Shown here: in pieces, positions 8,038 through 27,793 of the stretch | Layout: every line of letters starts with the position of its first letter | Numbering within the stretch: the first letter of the stretch is position 1 | Origin: a virus | Reading direction: 5' to 3' (one strand) | Length of the DNA: 64,000 bases | Virus record (IMG/VR): IMGVR_UViG_3300005842_000001 | Location: 1 to 64,000 of that record | The notes under the pieces: model-generated | The model's database searches: none | Seen by the model: the letters and a program-made list of their open reading frames with translations, nothing else | Told to the model about the DNA's origin: nothing | Made by a program: the position numbers and the translations under genes

Positions 8038-8586
8038 ATGAAAGAACCTTGGATTCAAACGTACACAGGCAAGCAATTCAGCTATCTTGAGGCTTCTGCC
8101 GATCAGATCAGCATTGAAGACATTGCCAGATCATTGTCACACCTGTGTAGGTTTACTGGCCATTGCAAAACCTTCTATTCAGTTGCACAGCATTCTGTTC
8201 TTGTGAGCCAAAAGACACACAACCCATTCTTTGGATTGATGCACGATGCCGACGAAGCCTACACCGGGGATATGAATAGGCCGTTGAAGCATTTTCTTGG
8301 GGCTGGATCGTTCTTCGAGAGGGCAGCCAATACAGCTTGGTATGCGATTCGAGACAAGTTCCCATTGCTGAAAGAAGTGACGCCAGATGAAGAGGCTGAT
8401 TGCAAGAAAGTAGACTTGAGGATGCTTGTCACAGAATCCTATGAGTTGCTCCTAAACGGCCCGCACCCTGACTGGCAGATCAACAAGTTCACTCATCCAC
8501 GGTACGACGGCGAGATAACACCGTGGCTGCCTGACTATGCAATGCGCAGGTTCCTTGATCGGTTCAATGAACTGAATGCAACATAA
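8038..8586 (+). CDS. HD-domain phosphohydrolase
   Basis: The 182-residue protein contains HCKTFYSVAQHSVLVS (about residues 42-57, metal ligand H52) and LMHDADEAYTGDMNRPLK (H69-D70). These are the signature motifs of the YfbR-like HD nucleotidase/phosphohydrolase group common in phages and bacteria. The likely role is hydrolysis of a nucleotide or nucleoside phosphate in phage nucleotide metabolism; the substrate is unknown. The start at 8038 follows CCGGAGCGAAC. The motifs are intact, so an active enzyme is expected. Confidence 0.85.
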   Translation: MKEPWIQTYTGKQFSYLEASADQISIEDIARSLSHLCRFTGHCKTFYSVAQHSVLVSQKTHNPFFGLMHDADEAYTGDMNRPLKHFLGAGSFFERAANTAWYAIRDKFPLLKEVTPDEEADCKKVDLRMLVTESYELLLNGPHPDWQINKFTHPRYDGEITPWLPDYAMRRFLDRFNELNAT

Positions 8587-8602
8587 TCCTAATTATCAGA
8601 CG

Positions 8603-9055
8603 ATGCTCAAACCAAGACCTACAACCCTGAAAGAAGCCAATGCCTTTGTGGGCGAAGAACACAGGCATCACCCGCCTGTTGCCGGTCACAGATGGAGCAT
8701 GGGCTGCAAGGCAGAAAGCAAACTGGTAGGCGTTGTCATTGTTGGACGGGCAGTTGCAAGACAGACTGACCAGTATGAGGTGGCAGAGGTTACTAGACTG
8801 GCGACTAACGGACACCGCAACGCCTGTTCGTTCCTCTACGCCAGAGCGACACACATTGCCCGGCTAATGGGCTTTAGAAGCATTCAGACTTTCACACTAG
8901 CCAGCGAATCAGGATCGAGCATCAAAGCCCTAAAGGAACTTGGGTGGAAATGTCTTGGGCCAACGAAAGATGGCGGGTGGAAGACTAGAAGCGGAAGGCG
9001 CGACCAGCTTGAAGAAAAAACGATCAAGTGGGAATGCCTTCTCAATGATACATAA
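8603..9055 (+). CDS. XF1762-like GNAT-related protein
   Basis: The segment EANAFVGEEHRHHPPVAGHR, then VIVGRAVARQTD and EVTRLATNGHRNACSFLYA, matches the pattern of the XF1762 family, a GNAT-like phage/plasmid protein group of unknown substrate. Start 8603 gives MLKPRPTTLKEA, the family-like N-terminus; ATG 8576, overlapping the previous stop, is an alternative. Acetyltransferase activity is not established. Confidence 0.75.
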   Translation: MLKPRPTTLKEANAFVGEEHRHHPPVAGHRWSMGCKAESKLVGVVIVGRAVARQTDQYEVAEVTRLATNGHRNACSFLYARATHIARLMGFRSIQTFTLASESGSSIKALKELGWKCLGPTKDGGWKTRSGRRDQLEEKTIKWECLLNDT

Positions 9056-10797: not shown

Positions 10798-11767
10798 AAC
10801 AGGAATTGAATGGTGCAACCATACCTTTAATTGTTGGATTGGTTGCGAGAAAGTCAGCCCAGCATGTACCAACTGCTATGCCGAGAACTCGACACCGGTT
10901 CGGGTGGCAGCCACCAAGTTCAGTCTGAAGCTCTGGGGCGCTGAGTCAACTGGCGCTGTCAGACGGGTGGCATCTGAAGCGATGTGGAAAGAGCCAGTGA
11001 AATGGAACAAAGAAGCACAGAAGCTCGGAGTCAGGCGTAAAGTGTTCTGTGCTTCGCTGGCAGACGTGTTTGAAGACTACAATGGTCCGATAACAACGCA
11101 TGAAGGAGTTCAGTTGTTCAAATTGGCCGATGGATCGATTGGGCCTCTTCCCGATGACGTAACGGTCTACAGTGACACGATCAAGCCGTTGACACTGACT
11201 GACATCAGACAACGCCTTTTTTCTCTAATCGATTCAACCCCTCACCTTGACTGGCTCTTGCTTACGAAGCGCCCAGAGAACGTACAGAAGCTCTGGCCGT
11301 TTGGTTGGTACTCTGATGAGTTCAGTTGGTCGAACGTCTGGATGGGAATCACTGTCGAGAATCAAAAGTATCTGGACGAACGCTTGCCCCATTTGCTCAG
11401 CATTCCTGCTGTCGTGAGATGGCTCAGTATCGAGCCAATGCTTGGGCCGATGCGATTGCCTTTCGGCAAGGTCTGGTGTCGTGCATGCAATCGCTATGAA
11501 GAGAAGTTGTGTATGGATCATGGTTCGCCTTGCTTCATTGGTCAGGCTTCAGCTACTGACCTGATTGATTGGGCCATTGTCGGCGGTGAAAGCGGTGATC
11601 ATCGTAGGTCAATGAACCTCGACGATGCGCGCAGTCTTAGAGAACAATGCAAAGCAGCAGGCATTGCTTACTTTTTCAAACAAGTTGATAAGGTGATTGC
11701 TGTCCCGTCTGATCTTGAAATCAGGCAGTTTCCAAAAAGTGTTTACGTCGATTCCTTGGTGCATTGA
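10787..11767 (+). CDS. DUF5131 (phage Gp37/Gp68) family protein
   Basis: IEWCNHTFNCWIGCEKVSPACTNCYAE at residues about 6-32 carries the Cys cluster diagnostic of DUF5131, followed by LLTKRPENV, IWMGITVEN-like VWMGITVEN, LSIEPMLGP and DWAIVGGESG. All are hallmarks of the family. The Cys cluster resembles that of radical-SAM enzymes, but the biochemical role is not settled. ATG 10787 follows AAAAGGAGAAGCCGTT, which lies inside the HNH gene. The 3' end overlaps a convergent LAGLIDADG gene by 47 bases, so the gene is bracketed by two endonuclease genes. Confidence 0.85.
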   Translation: MGRETGIEWCNHTFNCWIGCEKVSPACTNCYAENSTPVRVAATKFSLKLWGAESTGAVRRVASEAMWKEPVKWNKEAQKLGVRRKVFCASLADVFEDYNGPITTHEGVQLFKLADGSIGPLPDDVTVYSDTIKPLTLTDIRQRLFSLIDSTPHLDWLLLTKRPENVQKLWPFGWYSDEFSWSNVWMGITVENQKYLDERLPHLLSIPAVVRWLSIEPMLGPMRLPFGKVWCRACNRYEEKLCMDHGSPCFIGQASATDLIDWAIVGGESGDHRRSMNLDDARSLREQCKAAGIAYFFKQVDKVIAVPSDLEIRQFPKSVYVDSLVH

Positions 11768-12221
11768 GACGTGTGACCTTCTCCCAAAGTGCATGACGTT
11801 TTTTCGACAAAGCCGCTGGCACACGGTATGGCGGCTTCTGAGTTTTTTTTATTTTAATCCAGTCACTACGAATCATTCTAATCAGCTTCAGCGCCATGAC
11901 CGCTTGCTTTCCCTTGTATCTAAGATACGGCATTATAGCCACTAATGCCTTTTCGGCATTCTTCCCATCAGCGTACCACGTCTCTGTTTTCTTGTGGTTC
12001 TTATTCTTCGGAGTGTAACTATATATACTCCCGCCAAAATGCTTTTTCAGAAGATCATGAACTTTCCTGCCAGACGTTCCAATGAACCCCATTTTGGCGA
12101 TGTAATAGATCGGATGGCTACCGTACCGTTTGCCGACAGTCCTCTTGAGTCTGCCAATTGTGATGAATCCATCGGCGTCGATTGCGCCAGCAAAATAAGC
12201 ATAGACAAGTTTGTTGTTCAT
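11721..12221 (-). CDS. LAGLIDADG homing endonuclease (minus strand)
   Basis: The 166-residue protein starts MNNKLVYAYFAGAIDADGFI, a clear single LAGLIDADG motif, with a second hydrophobic-helix region (AEKALVAIMPYLRYKGKQA) and a basic C-terminus. Size fits a single-motif enzyme that acts as a homodimer. It is convergent with DUF5131 and overlaps its last 47 bases. No strong SD is seen upstream of ATG 12221. One of only a few minus-strand genes in the window, as expected for an invading element. Confidence 0.85.
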   Translation of the reverse strand: MNNKLVYAYFAGAIDADGFITIGRLKRTVGKRYGSHPIYYIAKMGFIGTSGRKVHDLLKKHFGGSIYSYTPKNKNHKKTETWYADGKNAEKALVAIMPYLRYKGKQAVMALKLIRMIRSDWIKIKKTQKPPYRVPAALSKKRHALWEKVTRLNAPRNRRKHFLETA

Positions 12222-23485: not shown

Positions 23486-26400
23486 ATGAATCAATTACCA
23501 ATGAATCCTGGCAACGACATGACCGACGTTCGCATCAAGTCGGGACTATTCGGCGGCATGGGCGGTATTGGCCGACAGATGGGCCGGGTGATGTACCGCA
23601 CCGGGCAGTTCCTCGGTGTCATGCCTTGGGAGACGCCGAGACGTTCACAGATCGGGGTCGATCCCATCGGTGAAGAGTTCATGCTCAATGAGGATCAGCA
23701 AGCTAAGGCCCGCTTGATGGGTCAGAAAATCTATCACGAGTTTGTTGCTGGTCGTTTCAGCTTCTTGTCCAACGACGATGGCAAGAGCAACGAAACGCCT
23801 CAGATGCGTGAAGAATACTGGAAGTTTGCAGTCACAGAGCCAGCGCTTGACGCTGCTCTGTGGACAAAGATCACCGCAGTCATCGCCAATGAATTGATCA
23901 TCAAGCCATCATCGAAGTCAGGCTTTGATCGATACATTGCCGATTGGGTGCATGACTGCATTATCAGATGCAAGGGCGGCTTGCGCAACATCGGTGAGCA
24001 GATTCTCTTTCATGGTCAAGTGTACGGCAATGTGTTATGTGAACCGAAATGGAAGCACGAGCATCGGCAAGTCCACTCAACGATGTTCCCTTATGGTTTC
24101 TGGACGCTGAAGGATTTCGTTGCAAAGCCACCGGGCGATTACAAATTGGAAATCGATGGCTTCAGAAACATCACCGGCGTCTGGTCGGCAAAAACTGCTG
24201 AATGGTTCGATCCTACTTACTTCGTTTATTGGGCTCACAAGCCGATCTATGGCAACATGGGCGGCACGTCGGGCGTTCGCAGTGTCAGACGAGCTTGCAC
24301 TCTTCTAAAGCTGGCCCACAACTATCGAGGCATCTACCTTGAGCAGTTCGGCTTGCCGATGATCAAGGCGACTTACCCCCAGAACGATGACGACTCTCAG
24401 CGCATCGCAAGAGCAGCGATTCAACACGCTCGATCACTCGGCTACATCTTGATACCAGAAGGTGTTGACGTTGAGGCATTGACACTGGCACAGCGCGGCG
24501 AGTCTGACTATCAGGATGCCATTGACGATTACCGAAAAGAAATCTTCCTTGGGCAGACAGGATCGTACCTGTATGCGATGGAAGGAAGCGTAGGTCATGC
24601 TGCTGGCAATTCAGAGACTCACCGCAGTACGCTTGATCTGTGGGTTGGGTATCTCAGCAAGATTCTGGAAGAGATTCTCAATGATCAGATCATTCCCTGG
24701 CTGATCACGCTAAATATATACAACGCTGATCCGCCACGAGCTATGATCGGCGGCGTCAACGATGAAGATTTGAAAGCATCACTTGAGGTTGACGATAAAT
24801 TGATTAGCTGGGGTGTTGAGCTTGATGAAGATGAACTACGAGATCGCTACCACCGATCAGCGCCAAAGAATGGCAAGGGCATTGGCGGCATGAATCGCTT
24901 GATGCTTGGGATGAACAATGGCATGGGAGCAAACAATGTACAAGGCAACCCGTTCGCTGGGCAAGCCGCTTCATTCCCGTTGCAGAATCAGGGGCAAGCC
25001 GCGAATAACAATACACCGCCGCAAAGAGATGATCAGACAGTTAAGTTCTCAGCAGATGACGAGGACTTTACACAGCAGCAAAACTATACTTGCGGAACGG
25101 CATCACTCCGATTCGCCATGAACCATTTTGGTGTCACTCCGCCTGAAGAAAGTGTGCTGTCCCTATTACTTGGTACGACACCAGCACAAGGCACGAATGC
25201 AGCCTCAATCGTGAGGCTGGCAAAGCAGAATGGGCTAGAGGCTGAAGGCCAGTCCAACATGACAATGCTCGAAATGTCAGAGCGTCTGAAGGATGGGGCA
25301 GTCGTACTGGCTCCCATTCAGAAGTTCGGGTCACCTGAAGAGAAAGCGAAGAATCAGACTGGTCACTGGATCGCTGTAACACGTCTTGATGGTTCAAGCG
25401 GTATGCTTGAATACTTCGATCCAGTTTTGGGCAGTGACAAGCCCTGCTGGGAGTCGTTGCAGACGTTCGCTGCCAACTGGCATGATCGAGATGGTGATGG
25501 GAAGATGTTGCCCAGGTATGCGATCACGATCAGCGAACCTAAAAAAAAAATGACATTCAGCACCGATGATCTGCAACTTGGATACATCTCGATTCCGCTG
25601 CCTGAGTTCGCTGAAGCAATCCAGAAGGTGCAAAGCGCGATCGATCCTGCTGACTTGATCAAGACTGAGAATGATCATCATATCACGTTGCTTTATGGTT
25701 GTGGCGCTGACAGCTTCGATGACAGCGTGAAGCTCTGCGCTAGCATTGCACCAATCAAGATGACTTTTGGCGGCACATTCACACTGTCGCCAAAAGATGC
25801 GGACCATGACGTTCTGGCGTTCAAAGTCTATGGCGATGCTCTTGAGAAAGCAAACTACAGTCTCGCCAGCGGGTTAGAAGTCAAGCAAGACTACGATACC
25901 TTCCAGCCCCACGTCAAAATAGGGCGGCTCAAACAAGGGGCAGGGTCAAAATATACTTCACCATCATTTGCGGGCTTCTCAGCATTGCTGGGCGATTCCA
26001 AGGTGGCTGAGTCTGCTCAGTTCAAGGTAAAGGGTGGTGAAGCGTTAAGCCTCCCTTTTGCCGCAGTGTCTGATTTACCAGTTCTGAAGTTCTCAGAAGA
26101 GCCAGCAAGCGATGAAGTTGCCAAGCCGGGTAAAGATGGCGACAAAGCAGATAAGCTGCTACAGAACGTCAAGGAAGACGGTACAGCGATCCTGGCTCGA
26201 CTTTGCAAAATGGCATATCGCCGCATGCTTGATAATGGCGTTGGTGGCAGTCAGCTATTCACGATGCAAGAGAGGAACGAACTCACCGAAGCATTCTTGG
26301 GCTGTGTGATCAATGCCAATCTGCTTGGTCGATCATCCACCATCAGCAAGTTCCTGAGAGACCAAGATGAATCGAGAGTTGATCGATTCGCTGATGAAAC

Positions 26401-27793
26401 GCCATTCGATGCGTTTTCATCTGCCCTTGATCCTTTGCGCCCTGAGCTAGCGATTGATTATTTCAAAAATCTGTTCCCGATGATCGGCGTTGATCCAGTG
26501 GCGTACATTCCGCAGATGAGGCGATATGCCTTCACGTTGGCGGTTGCAACCGAGACAACTCTTCTTGGTAAGGTTCACGATCTACTGACTGATGCACTAC
26601 ACGAAGGAACGCTTGACACTCAATTCAAGATCGATGATCTGCTAAAGAAGACTGGCGTGGCTCCTGAAAACCCGCAGTACAGTGAAATGGTTTTCAGGAC
26701 GAACATGATGGACGCCTACACGACTGGCACGACAGATCAGGCAAAAGACCCGACCATTGCCGAAGCGTACCCGGTGTGGCGATACGATGGCATCGACGAC
26801 GAACGCGCTGGGAAAGATCATCGCCCCAAGTTCGGGAAGTATTATCCATCGTCAGCAGAGTTTGCTGATGTTCGTGGTGATCGTCCTTATAACTGTGTTC
26901 TCCCTGGGCAGATGACACAGGGAAGAATCAATGGGGCATTAAAAGCCCACTATTCTGGCGAAGCGGTCGAGATTTATAGTGACAGTGGTGATATTATTTC
27001 CCTGACCGTCAACCATCCCGTATTGACCGATAGAGGCTTTATTCGTGCTGGCGAAGTGAAGGAAGGAGATTATCTTGTCAGCTATTCCGGGGAACATCAA
27101 ATCCCTGTTCTTGGTGAAGACTATCAATACTTTCCAACCTTGATCGAAGATGTATTTGAGACGATTAGTGTAGTTAAAGGTAGGTCGGCTAGGGCTTCTG
27201 CCCCAGTTTCCCTTTTCAAGCTCTATGGCGATGAGTTGTTCCTTGAAAGCAAGATCGACGTTGTAGGCTCCTATCGGGAATTGCTGTTCAATGGTGTGCC
27301 CCATGATTCTGAGCGTGTTCGCAACTCTATCCTCTCTGGGGCTACGGTGAAGCTGCATGGCATACCACGAAGCAGCACGCTTCAATTTAACAGCCATGCT
27401 GTCAGTCATCCCTCTTCTAGCGGCGTGGGCCTTAGCGACTTGCTTGGCTCTGATGCGTTTGCTCATCAAACTCCATTTAGTCTTTTCTGCTTCGGATCGG
27501 CCTCGCACCTTTATTCCCAATTTGACGAATTGCTTTCTAAGACAACTTCTGTCGATGTTCAGTTTGTCGGCAAGAGCCTTCATGGAGGCACCGGCAAGGT
27601 AGCGTTTAGCAAGGCGAGAAAGATTAGGAATTTCCATTACGATGGTCCTGTGTTTGATTGCTCAACTGATGTTGGATATTTTATAGTAAATAACATCTTC
27701 ATTTCAAATTGCCGCTGCTGTCCTACGATGATCTACAAGACAACATGGCAACAGTTGCAGGATCAAGGTAAGAGCGTAGAGACAAGCTGGTAG
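23486..27793 (+). CDS. Portal-C39-2H-MuF fusion protein with intein
   Basis: The 1435-residue precursor combines several parts. Residues about 1-490 are a Mu-like (DUF935-type) portal. Next is a C39-like peptidase domain with C536 (YTCGTASLRF) and H627 (GHWIAVT), and an Asp in YFDP. Then comes a 2H-phosphoesterase-like domain with HITLLYG (about 732) and a weaker HVKIGRL (about 809). The end is a MuF head-morphogenesis domain finishing DRPYN-CRCCPTMIY. An intein (1137-1408) interrupts the conserved NCRC of MuF; removal leaves 1163 residues. Portal and MuF act at the head vertex; the two enzyme-like inserts are probably carried there or act in maturation (inference). Starts after AAGGGACAGTC. 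Confidence 0.85.
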   Translation: MNQLPMNPGNDMTDVRIKSGLFGGMGGIGRQMGRVMYRTGQFLGVMPWETPRRSQIGVDPIGEEFMLNEDQQAKARLMGQKIYHEFVAGRFSFLSNDDGKSNETPQMREEYWKFAVTEPALDAALWTKITAVIANELIIKPSSKSGFDRYIADWVHDCIIRCKGGLRNIGEQILFHGQVYGNVLCEPKWKHEHRQVHSTMFPYGFWTLKDFVAKPPGDYKLEIDGFRNITGVWSAKTAEWFDPTYFVYWAHKPIYGNMGGTSGVRSVRRACTLLKLAHNYRGIYLEQFGLPMIKATYPQNDDDSQRIARAAIQHARSLGYILIPEGVDVEALTLAQRGESDYQDAIDDYRKEIFLGQTGSYLYAMEGSVGHAAGNSETHRSTLDLWVGYLSKILEEILNDQIIPWLITLNIYNADPPRAMIGGVNDEDLKASLEVDDKLISWGVELDEDELRDRYHRSAPKNGKGIGGMNRLMLGMNNGMGANNVQGNPFAGQAASFPLQNQGQAANNNTPPQRDDQTVKFSADDEDFTQQQNYTCGTASLRFAMNHFGVTPPEESVLSLLLGTTPAQGTNAASIVRLAKQNGLEAEGQSNMTMLEMSERLKDGAVVLAPIQKFGSPEEKAKNQTGHWIAVTRLDGSSGMLEYFDPVLGSDKPCWESLQTFAANWHDRDGDGKMLPRYAITISEPKKKMTFSTDDLQLGYISIPLPEFAEAIQKVQSAIDPADLIKTENDHHITLLYGCGADSFDDSVKLCASIAPIKMTFGGTFTLSPKDADHDVLAFKVYGDALEKANYSLASGLEVKQDYDTFQPHVKIGRLKQGAGSKYTSPSFAGFSALLGDSKVAESAQFKVKGGEALSLPFAAVSDLPVLKFSEEPASDEVAKPGKDGDKADKLLQNVKEDGTAILARLCKMAYRRMLDNGVGGSQLFTMQERNELTEAFLGCVINANLLGRSSTISKFLRDQDESRVDRFADETPFDAFSSALDPLRPELAIDYFKNLFPMIGVDPVAYIPQMRRYAFTLAVATETTLLGKVHDLLTDALHEGTLDTQFKIDDLLKKTGVAPENPQYSEMVFRTNMMDAYTTGTTDQAKDPTIAEAYPVWRYDGIDDERAGKDHRPKFGKYYPSSAEFADVRGDRPYNCVLPGQMTQGRINGALKAHYSGEAVEIYSDSGDIISLTVNHPVLTDRGFIRAGEVKEGDYLVSYSGEHQIPVLGEDYQYFPTLIEDVFETISVVKGRSARASAPVSLFKLYGDELFLESKIDVVGSYRELLFNGVPHDSERVRNSILSGATVKLHGIPRSSTLQFNSHAVSHPSSSGVGLSDLLGSDAFAHQTPFSLFCFGSASHLYSQFDELLSKTTSVDVQFVGKSLHGGTGKVAFSKARKIRNFHYDGPVFDCSTDVGYFIVNNIFISNCRCCPTMIYKTTWQQLQDQGKSVETSW
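26939..27637 (-). CDS. Antisense Vsr/PD-(D/E)XK-like homing endonuclease nested in the intein
   Basis: A 232-residue frame lying wholly inside the intein on the opposite strand, in exact codon register with it. N-terminal helix-turn-helix (YLAGASMKALADKLNIDR, then GIKVRGRSEAEKTKW). Nuclease core: SPREDRVANTL, QQFPIGAYNVDLAF, IAIELEKGNW and FDQGWKVLIVFT, then GIADKIISFL. This order (E, D, ExE with a following Trp-turn) is that of Vsr/DUF559-like homing endonucleases. ATG 27637 has AGGA eight bases upstream and a TTGAAA-N16-TATAAA sequence further upstream. Its stop is the antisense of a Leu TTA codon. Confidence 0.8.
   Translation of the reverse strand: MEIPNLSRLAKRYLAGASMKALADKLNIDRSCLRKQFVKLGIKVRGRSEAEKTKWSLMSKRIRAKQVAKAHAARRGMTDSMAVKLKRAASWYAMQLHRSPREDRVANTLRIMGHTIEQQFPIGAYNVDLAFKEQLIAIELEKGNWGRSPSRPTFNYTNRLKYIFDQGWKVLIVFTKNRDLMFPGIADKIISFLHFASTNKASIGQYGMVDGQGNNITTVTINLDRFARIVGF
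27680..27707 (-). promoter_or_regulatory. Promoter-like element for the antisense endonuclease
   Basis: On the minus strand TTGAAA (27707-27702), 16-base spacer, TATAAA (27685-27680), about 43 bases before ATG 27637. It lies within the sense codons of the intein C-terminus. Confidence 0.5.

Follow-up and report, generated by a model that had tools for sequence, protein, structure and literature searches.

An intein of phage MuF genes with a probable homing endonuclease on its opposite strand

How might an intein be mobile when its own translation holds no nuclease? The question is raised by a locus in the window analyzed here, that is, the whole stretch of 64,000 nucleotides at positions 1 to 64,000 of the IMG/VR virus record IMGVR_UViG_3300005842_000001, a 72.8-kb record with Mu-type portal and MuF domains. 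In this window the gene for a fused portal-MuF protein is interrupted by an intein, and an open reading frame runs through the same DNA on the other strand. We propose that the element is very probably a mobile intein with a homing endonuclease gene on its complementary strand, the gene lying inside the intein's DNA and matching it codon for codon in register. Computational support for the two genes and their signals is strong: both frames exist, both are under coding selection, nuclease and intein homologies are found on the respective strands, the expression signals are conserved, and the element is present in some alleles and absent from others at one and the same site.

The antisense frame had been recognized in a preliminary description of this DNA, which rightly gave its position, its length of 232 residues and the codon boundaries that it shares with the intein. 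Within the overlap there is no TCA among the 32 serine codons, against 8.2 expected (in the rest of the window TCA makes up 25.5% of the serine codons), and the 22 leucine codons include neither TTA nor CTA, save the TTA that is the antisense stop itself; apart from that codon, the counts made earlier by eye hold. Given the sense residues and the codon usage of the phage, the joint probability of such an open antisense frame is 1.6e-6.

On profile and model comparison, the protein encoded by this frame has nuclease homologues, among them I-Bth0305I, Vsr and the DUF559/MTES_1575 families. A profile hidden Markov model of the antisense proteins matches the catalytic domain of I-Bth0305I (PDB 3r3p) with E-values of 8e-8 and 5.5e-5 and the structure 3hrl with 1e-5; unlike the profile, a phmmer search of PDB with the single protein gave no match. 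The Pfam family MTES_1575 aligns with residues 102-174 of the window protein at 7.6e-6, a value below the gathering cut-off, and is also matched by seven of nine homologues; free-standing plasmid genes annotated as DUF559 match the antisense protein as well (E = 2e-5), and PHROGs, PADLOC and NCBIfam returned only weak matches. The AlphaFold2 model has a predicted local distance difference test score (pLDDT) of 86.5. Its top Foldseek matches are 3r3p and then Vsr (1cw0, 1vsr), with a probability of 1.00 and E-values from 3e-3 to 1e-2, and it has a viral structural match over its full length at 1.3e-13. Among 61 sequences, Y125 and D128 are invariant and E102, N126, E139 and R159 are each found in 60; E102, D128 and E139 form the putative active site of an EDxHD-like core. 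Toward the amino terminus, the model has helices at residues 6-14, 19-26 and 30-39, and the helix-turn-helix (HTH) families HTH_23/28 match the window protein weakly, HTH_23 being matched in eight of the nine homologues. Both parts that had been read into this protein beforehand, an HTH and a core resembling Vsr and the PD-(D/E)XK nucleases, are thereby borne out.

Two frames in the same register are complementary codon by codon, so conservation of the sense protein must force some similarity on the antisense one. It could therefore be argued that only the intein is selected and that its complement merely looks conserved; indeed, control sequences shuffled so as to preserve the sense protein still score 59-140 bits on average. 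The real antisense score nevertheless exceeds that of every such shuffle in all 12 loci tested. In the window, synonymous changes that preserve the sense protein lower the antisense score of 220 bits to 101 at most; when the antisense protein is preserved instead, the sense score of 175 bits comes down to no more than 139. The result is alike in all 12 loci. Neither frame's similarity is the shadow of the other.

The codon positions give the same answer. Selection was measured in 44 independent pairs of homologous loci, and in all 44 the antisense amino-acid identity is higher than the sense identity; in 43 of them divergence in the antisense frame is greater at third than at first codon positions. 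The ratios were computed again with alignments built on the sense proteins. The divergence of sense third positions relative to first positions is then 1.44 for the N-extein; ahead of the overlap the intein has 1.68, and past the overlap the values are 1.81 and 1.52. Over successive sixths of the overlap it is 1.20 (the part with block B), followed by 0.77, 0.66, 0.74, 0.72 and 0.82. The pattern in the middle of the intein is thus that of an antisense gene and the pattern at its ends that of a sense gene; where block B lies, both are seen. This switch, with antisense periodicity inside the overlap and sense periodicity outside it, is seen in 42 of the 44 pairs, and the intein ends beyond the overlap are the slowest evolving of all. 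Purifying selection acts on the antisense frame and, over most of the overlap, is stronger there than on the sense frame. A conserved mirror image would also have to account for independent nuclease homologues, a nuclease fold, and an enrichment of start codon, Shine-Dalgarno sequence and promoter; we find this account scarcely credible, and it was rejected on the synonymous shuffles together with the codon-position analysis of the sense-made alignments.

Is the sense product still an intein? The preliminary description had the coordinates and frame right for a 272-residue element with Cys1, the motif TVNHP, a terminal Asn and a +1 Cys, splitting the sequence NCRC. C1, T38, H41 and N272 are invariant in 37 aligned inteins, and Pfam's Intein_splicing family matches the window intein at 5.6e-7. 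The sense profile matches the KlbA, Mtu RecA and RadA inteins, and by Foldseek the sense model resembles the Mtu RecA, PI-PfuI and RadA inteins. The Hint termini are predicted with pLDDT above 90 and residues 129-232 with pLDDT below 50. As had been noted from motifs, the sense frame seems to lack an endonuclease: Pfam and further family-library searches found no nuclease domain in it. The nuclease DNA sits between blocks B and F, which is the usual place, and its sense reading is mostly an unstructured linker; the antisense frame also overlaps block B and comes near block F. The suggestion that this layout would permit homing with no nuclease inserted into the splicing domain is accordingly half right, for the DNA is inserted there and it is only the sense translation that is not a nuclease.

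The long unstructured middle segment might be taken to mean that the antisense nuclease is functional and the sense intein no longer splices, the insertion being tolerated as a linker of the capsid protein, as has been proposed for the ShiLan insertion; insertions with no detectable splicing domains are indeed known (PMC11855218). This we regard as very unlikely, given that all the splicing residues (C1, T38, H41 and the terminal Asn) are invariant, that the slowest-evolving parts of the intein are its ends outside the overlap, and that the model predicts the Hint folds confidently. A further feature of MuF inteins (for example those of loci L013, L022 and L062) is a conserved motif in the sense frame, DFHGD...EVxVV. 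It is the nuclease motif YNxDxA...VAVE read as reverse complement, and intein annotators may have taken it for an intein block.

To judge from its signals, the antisense cassette is self-contained, with a predicted promoter, a Shine-Dalgarno sequence and an ATG, all opposite intein blocks F-G. As a rule the start codon faces the conserved His of block F (G-H-V-Y-D/N-L). CAT, the complement of ATG, encodes this His in 98 of 114 loci, where extein usage would predict 49.8. A motif resembling a Shine-Dalgarno sequence is likewise found in 98 of the 114 loci, and the leucine codon complementary to it is CTC in 78 of 100, compared with 21% in exteins. Upstream, the match to a sigma-70 promoter averages 8.35 of 12 over 110 loci, versus 6.73 in composition shuffles and 7.07 after synonymous resampling, a difference with p about 1e-15. 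A perfect 12/12 match, typically TTGACA-N17-TATAAT, is reached by nine loci, in which the -35 element lies opposite the catalytic terminal Ser-Asn of the intein and the +1 Cys. Of the signals proposed earlier for the window, the AGGA Shine-Dalgarno sequence stands as described, and the promoter (TTGAAA..TATAAA) is present and stands as a member of this enriched class rather than on its own match.

How widespread is this arrangement? A tblastn search with the antisense protein retrieved 64 phage records, mostly over the full length, at about 25-31% identity and with E-values down to 2e-24, and it outperformed the search with the sense protein. Where inspected, the matches lie opposite the coding strand of MuF genes, and the phages infect Gordonia, Pseudomonas, Klebsiella, Vibrio, Cronobacter, Haemophilus and others. 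Scans of IMG/VR, which at no point made use of the sense frame, together with the phage records gave 219 antisense-selected loci in 155 clusters at 90%; a sense open reading frame in the same register runs across the whole antisense match in 219 of 219. The reciprocal scan with a sense intein found the antisense nuclease intact in all 61 loci, although it was not fully unbiased, since one of its six patterns mirrors the nuclease active site. The closest antisense relative of the window phage (L095) is 41% identical. In the phage regions inspected the antisense gene is unannotated, except in Salmonella phage PK2, where it is a "hypothetical protein". A scan of 73 host proteins matched 49 to Phage_Mu_F, five to Phage_min_cap2, three to VG15 and one to a dCMP deaminase. 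This last (L021, Virus Rctr197k) has the intein with its antisense nuclease in a dCMP/cytidine deaminase gene (PF00383, 1.6e-11). The element has thus also moved into a gene of a different kind; the record's label, "head morphogenesis protein", is probably due to the intein. It is likely that we are dealing with a widespread class of phage elements, in many bacterial hosts, in which each intein strand encodes a protein, the sense strand for splicing and the antisense strand a homing cassette with its -35 and -10 elements, Shine-Dalgarno sequence and start codon inside blocks F-G. A shortened variant occurs in Rhodococcus phage REQ3 (L014), where the antisense nuclease is without the HTH and the insertion context differs (HPNAVLEG.., SNCGH).

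If the antisense protein serves homing, alleles without the intein should exist. They were sought with joined flanks, the intein-free junction serving as query, and were seen for homologues in phages of Pseudomonas, Salmonella and Gordonia. In P. aeruginosa phages the exact insertion point is filled in 14 and empty in 23, with flanks 95-98% identical; 257 Salmonella-group and 102 Gordonia records match the empty junction, each with an uninterrupted hit over 80% or more of the joined query. The antisense frame is open in nearly all related inteins. The exceptions are two separate assemblies (L187 and L189) with one in-frame antisense stop and an intact sense intein, of which a relative (L198) seems intact, and L151, with a frameshift in the antisense frame; these match what would be expected of decaying homing genes.

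Folds of the HTH and Vsr/DUF559 types also occur in repair and restriction proteins, and the antisense gene could be a real nuclease gene that shares the intein's DNA but acts in something other than homing, be it mismatch repair of the Vsr type, restriction of competitors or regulation through the HTH. The gene was, however, found only inside inteins (219/219), its presence or absence is precise at one site, a copy stands in a different host gene (L021), and its closest solved relative is a homing endonuclease. A role of this kind is therefore, in our opinion, unlikely.

A mobile intein with an antisense homing nuclease would work as follows. The portal-MuF gene would be translated through the intein, whose two Hint halves would fold around the unstructured linker, and the intein would excise itself by splicing and restore NCRC. 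On the other strand, the promoter and Shine-Dalgarno sequence opposite blocks F-G would drive a separate messenger RNA for the nuclease. The HTH part would locate the MuF site and the EDxHD-like core would cut it, the presumed targets being intein-free MuF alleles, at NC|RC, in co-infecting or resident phages. Repair from the intein-bearing copy would then install both proteins at once.

Several points weigh against this reading. About 15 of 150 loci would be antisense-open by chance alone, openness being weak evidence in GC-rich phages; for this reason openness alone was not used as evidence, and the case for the antisense gene rests on comparison of loci, not on the window alone. In the Foldseek comparison with PDB the E-value is modest (3e-3), the window protein's own Pfam nuclease matches are sub-threshold, and its promoter by itself is no better than chance, one being found against 1.1 expected. 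For want of a close relative that is not identical to the window phage, selection was measured on homologues. In some pairs the inteins are more alike than the exteins (92.9 versus 71.7% and 87.5 versus 65.7% nucleotide identity), which fits transfer, yet this excess is inflated by double coding and partly expected. On the three points that the preliminary description had named in advance as decisive for its proposal of two overlapping opposite-strand proteins, the outcome is that nuclease homologues exist, that the antisense frame is open in nearly all related inteins, and that it is under purifying selection.

Table 1. Positions in the window of the intein, its host gene and the antisense cassette
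Feature	Position	Strand	Basis
Host gene, Mu-type portal/MuF fusion, 1435 residues, carries the intein	23486..27793	+	Open reading frame call, Pfam
Intein, 272 residues, C1 to terminal Asn, between N and C of NC|RC	26894..27709	+	Pfam, profile, AlphaFold2
Catalytic Cys1 of intein (block A)	26894..26896	+	Invariant in alignment
Intein block B TxNH (T38, H41; TVNHP in window)	27005..27016	+	T38, H41 invariant
Terminal intein Asn272	27707..27709	+	Invariant in alignment
Antisense open reading frame, 232 residues, HTH and EDxHD/Vsr-like endonuclease, in the intein's codon register	26939..27637	-	Open reading frame call, homologues, hidden Markov model, AlphaFold2, Foldseek
HTH DNA-binding part, residues about 5-45	27503..27625	-	Weak Pfam HTH_23/28, predicted helices
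Nuclease core, residues about 100-175, putative active site E102, D128, E139	27113..27340	-	MTES_1575, conservation
Shine-Dalgarno AGGA, 8 bases before antisense ATG	27646..27649	-	Sequence
Sigma-70-like promoter, TTGAAA .. TAAAAT/TATAAA, 10/12, opposite last intein residues	27678..27707	-	Motif match

The part of the host frame that precedes the intein (23486-26893, plus strand) matches Portal_Mu at 6e-39 and Phage_Mu_F at 3e-4, the latter below the gathering cut-off. Between its portal and MuF parts lie a stretch resembling C39 peptidases (Pfam 2e-4, below cut-off) and, by eye, one resembling 2H phosphoesterases (HHITLLYG..HVKIGRL). Elsewhere in the window, an open reading frame of 166 residues (11721-12221, minus strand) has a LAGLIDADG-like motif, AYFAGAIDADG, with no Pfam match at E<=0.01, and the stretch at 8576-9055 (plus strand) has a weak, sub-threshold match to the DNA-modification family Mom (E 0.0024), which fits a Mu-like phage.

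With the canonical homing inteins, in which a LAGLIDADG or HNH nuclease stands between Hint blocks B and F, the element shares its Hint halves, its conserved site in an essential gene, the position of the nuclease DNA between blocks B and F and the presence/absence polymorphism; it differs in that the nuclease is a separate protein of the opposite strand, with a promoter and ribosome-binding site of its own, and the sense product is without one. Profile and fold of the catalytic domain, and the separate DNA-binding parts, link the nuclease to I-Bth0305I and the other EDxHD (Vsr-like) homing endonucleases, but here it overlaps an intein in antisense; to our knowledge, the EDxHD homing endonucleases described are intron-encoded or free-standing. 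We found no description in the literature of an antisense nuclease overlapping an intein. A 2025 bioRxiv survey of phage inteins by Gosselin and colleagues (10.1101/2025.01.02.630785), which PMC11855218 cites on overlapping reading frames, reportedly treats actinophage inteins of "non-canonical architecture"; these may include members of the present family, and the paper may cover part of it. ShiLan-type insertions in phage methylases hide an HNH endonuclease in another frame (PMC11855218). Like the present element, they stay open in the host frame and conceal a homing nuclease; there, however, the strand is the same, the nuclease is HNH, and no intein or intron was detected and no Shine-Dalgarno sequence found (PMC11855218), whereas here the nuclease is antisense and EDxHD/Vsr-like, the intein is recognizable, and a Shine-Dalgarno sequence and promoter are present. 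Group I introns in the ribosomal DNA of myxomycetes also carry homing endonuclease genes on the strand opposite the host element, but these are separate insertions in an intron RNA segment and share no codons with another protein (PMC9548176). We judge the present element to be a new architecture of homing intein, with double-strand coding and an antisense EDxHD-like nuclease.

Long antisense coding, in the same register, of two conserved and well-folded proteins has rarely been demonstrated convincingly, and with about 230-300 codons double-coded across 155 clusters these inteins are a natural laboratory for the co-evolution of proteins from complementary strands. For the DFHGD...EVxVV motif of the MuF inteins there is now an explanation, in that it largely complements the active site of a nuclease. 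The family is also a warning that annotation pipelines overlook such antisense genes. If our reading is true, expression of the nuclease would be decoupled from that of the capsid gene, and the signals for splicing and for homing would co-evolve base by base; this suggests how an intein lodged in a structural gene might make its nuclease on a schedule of its own.
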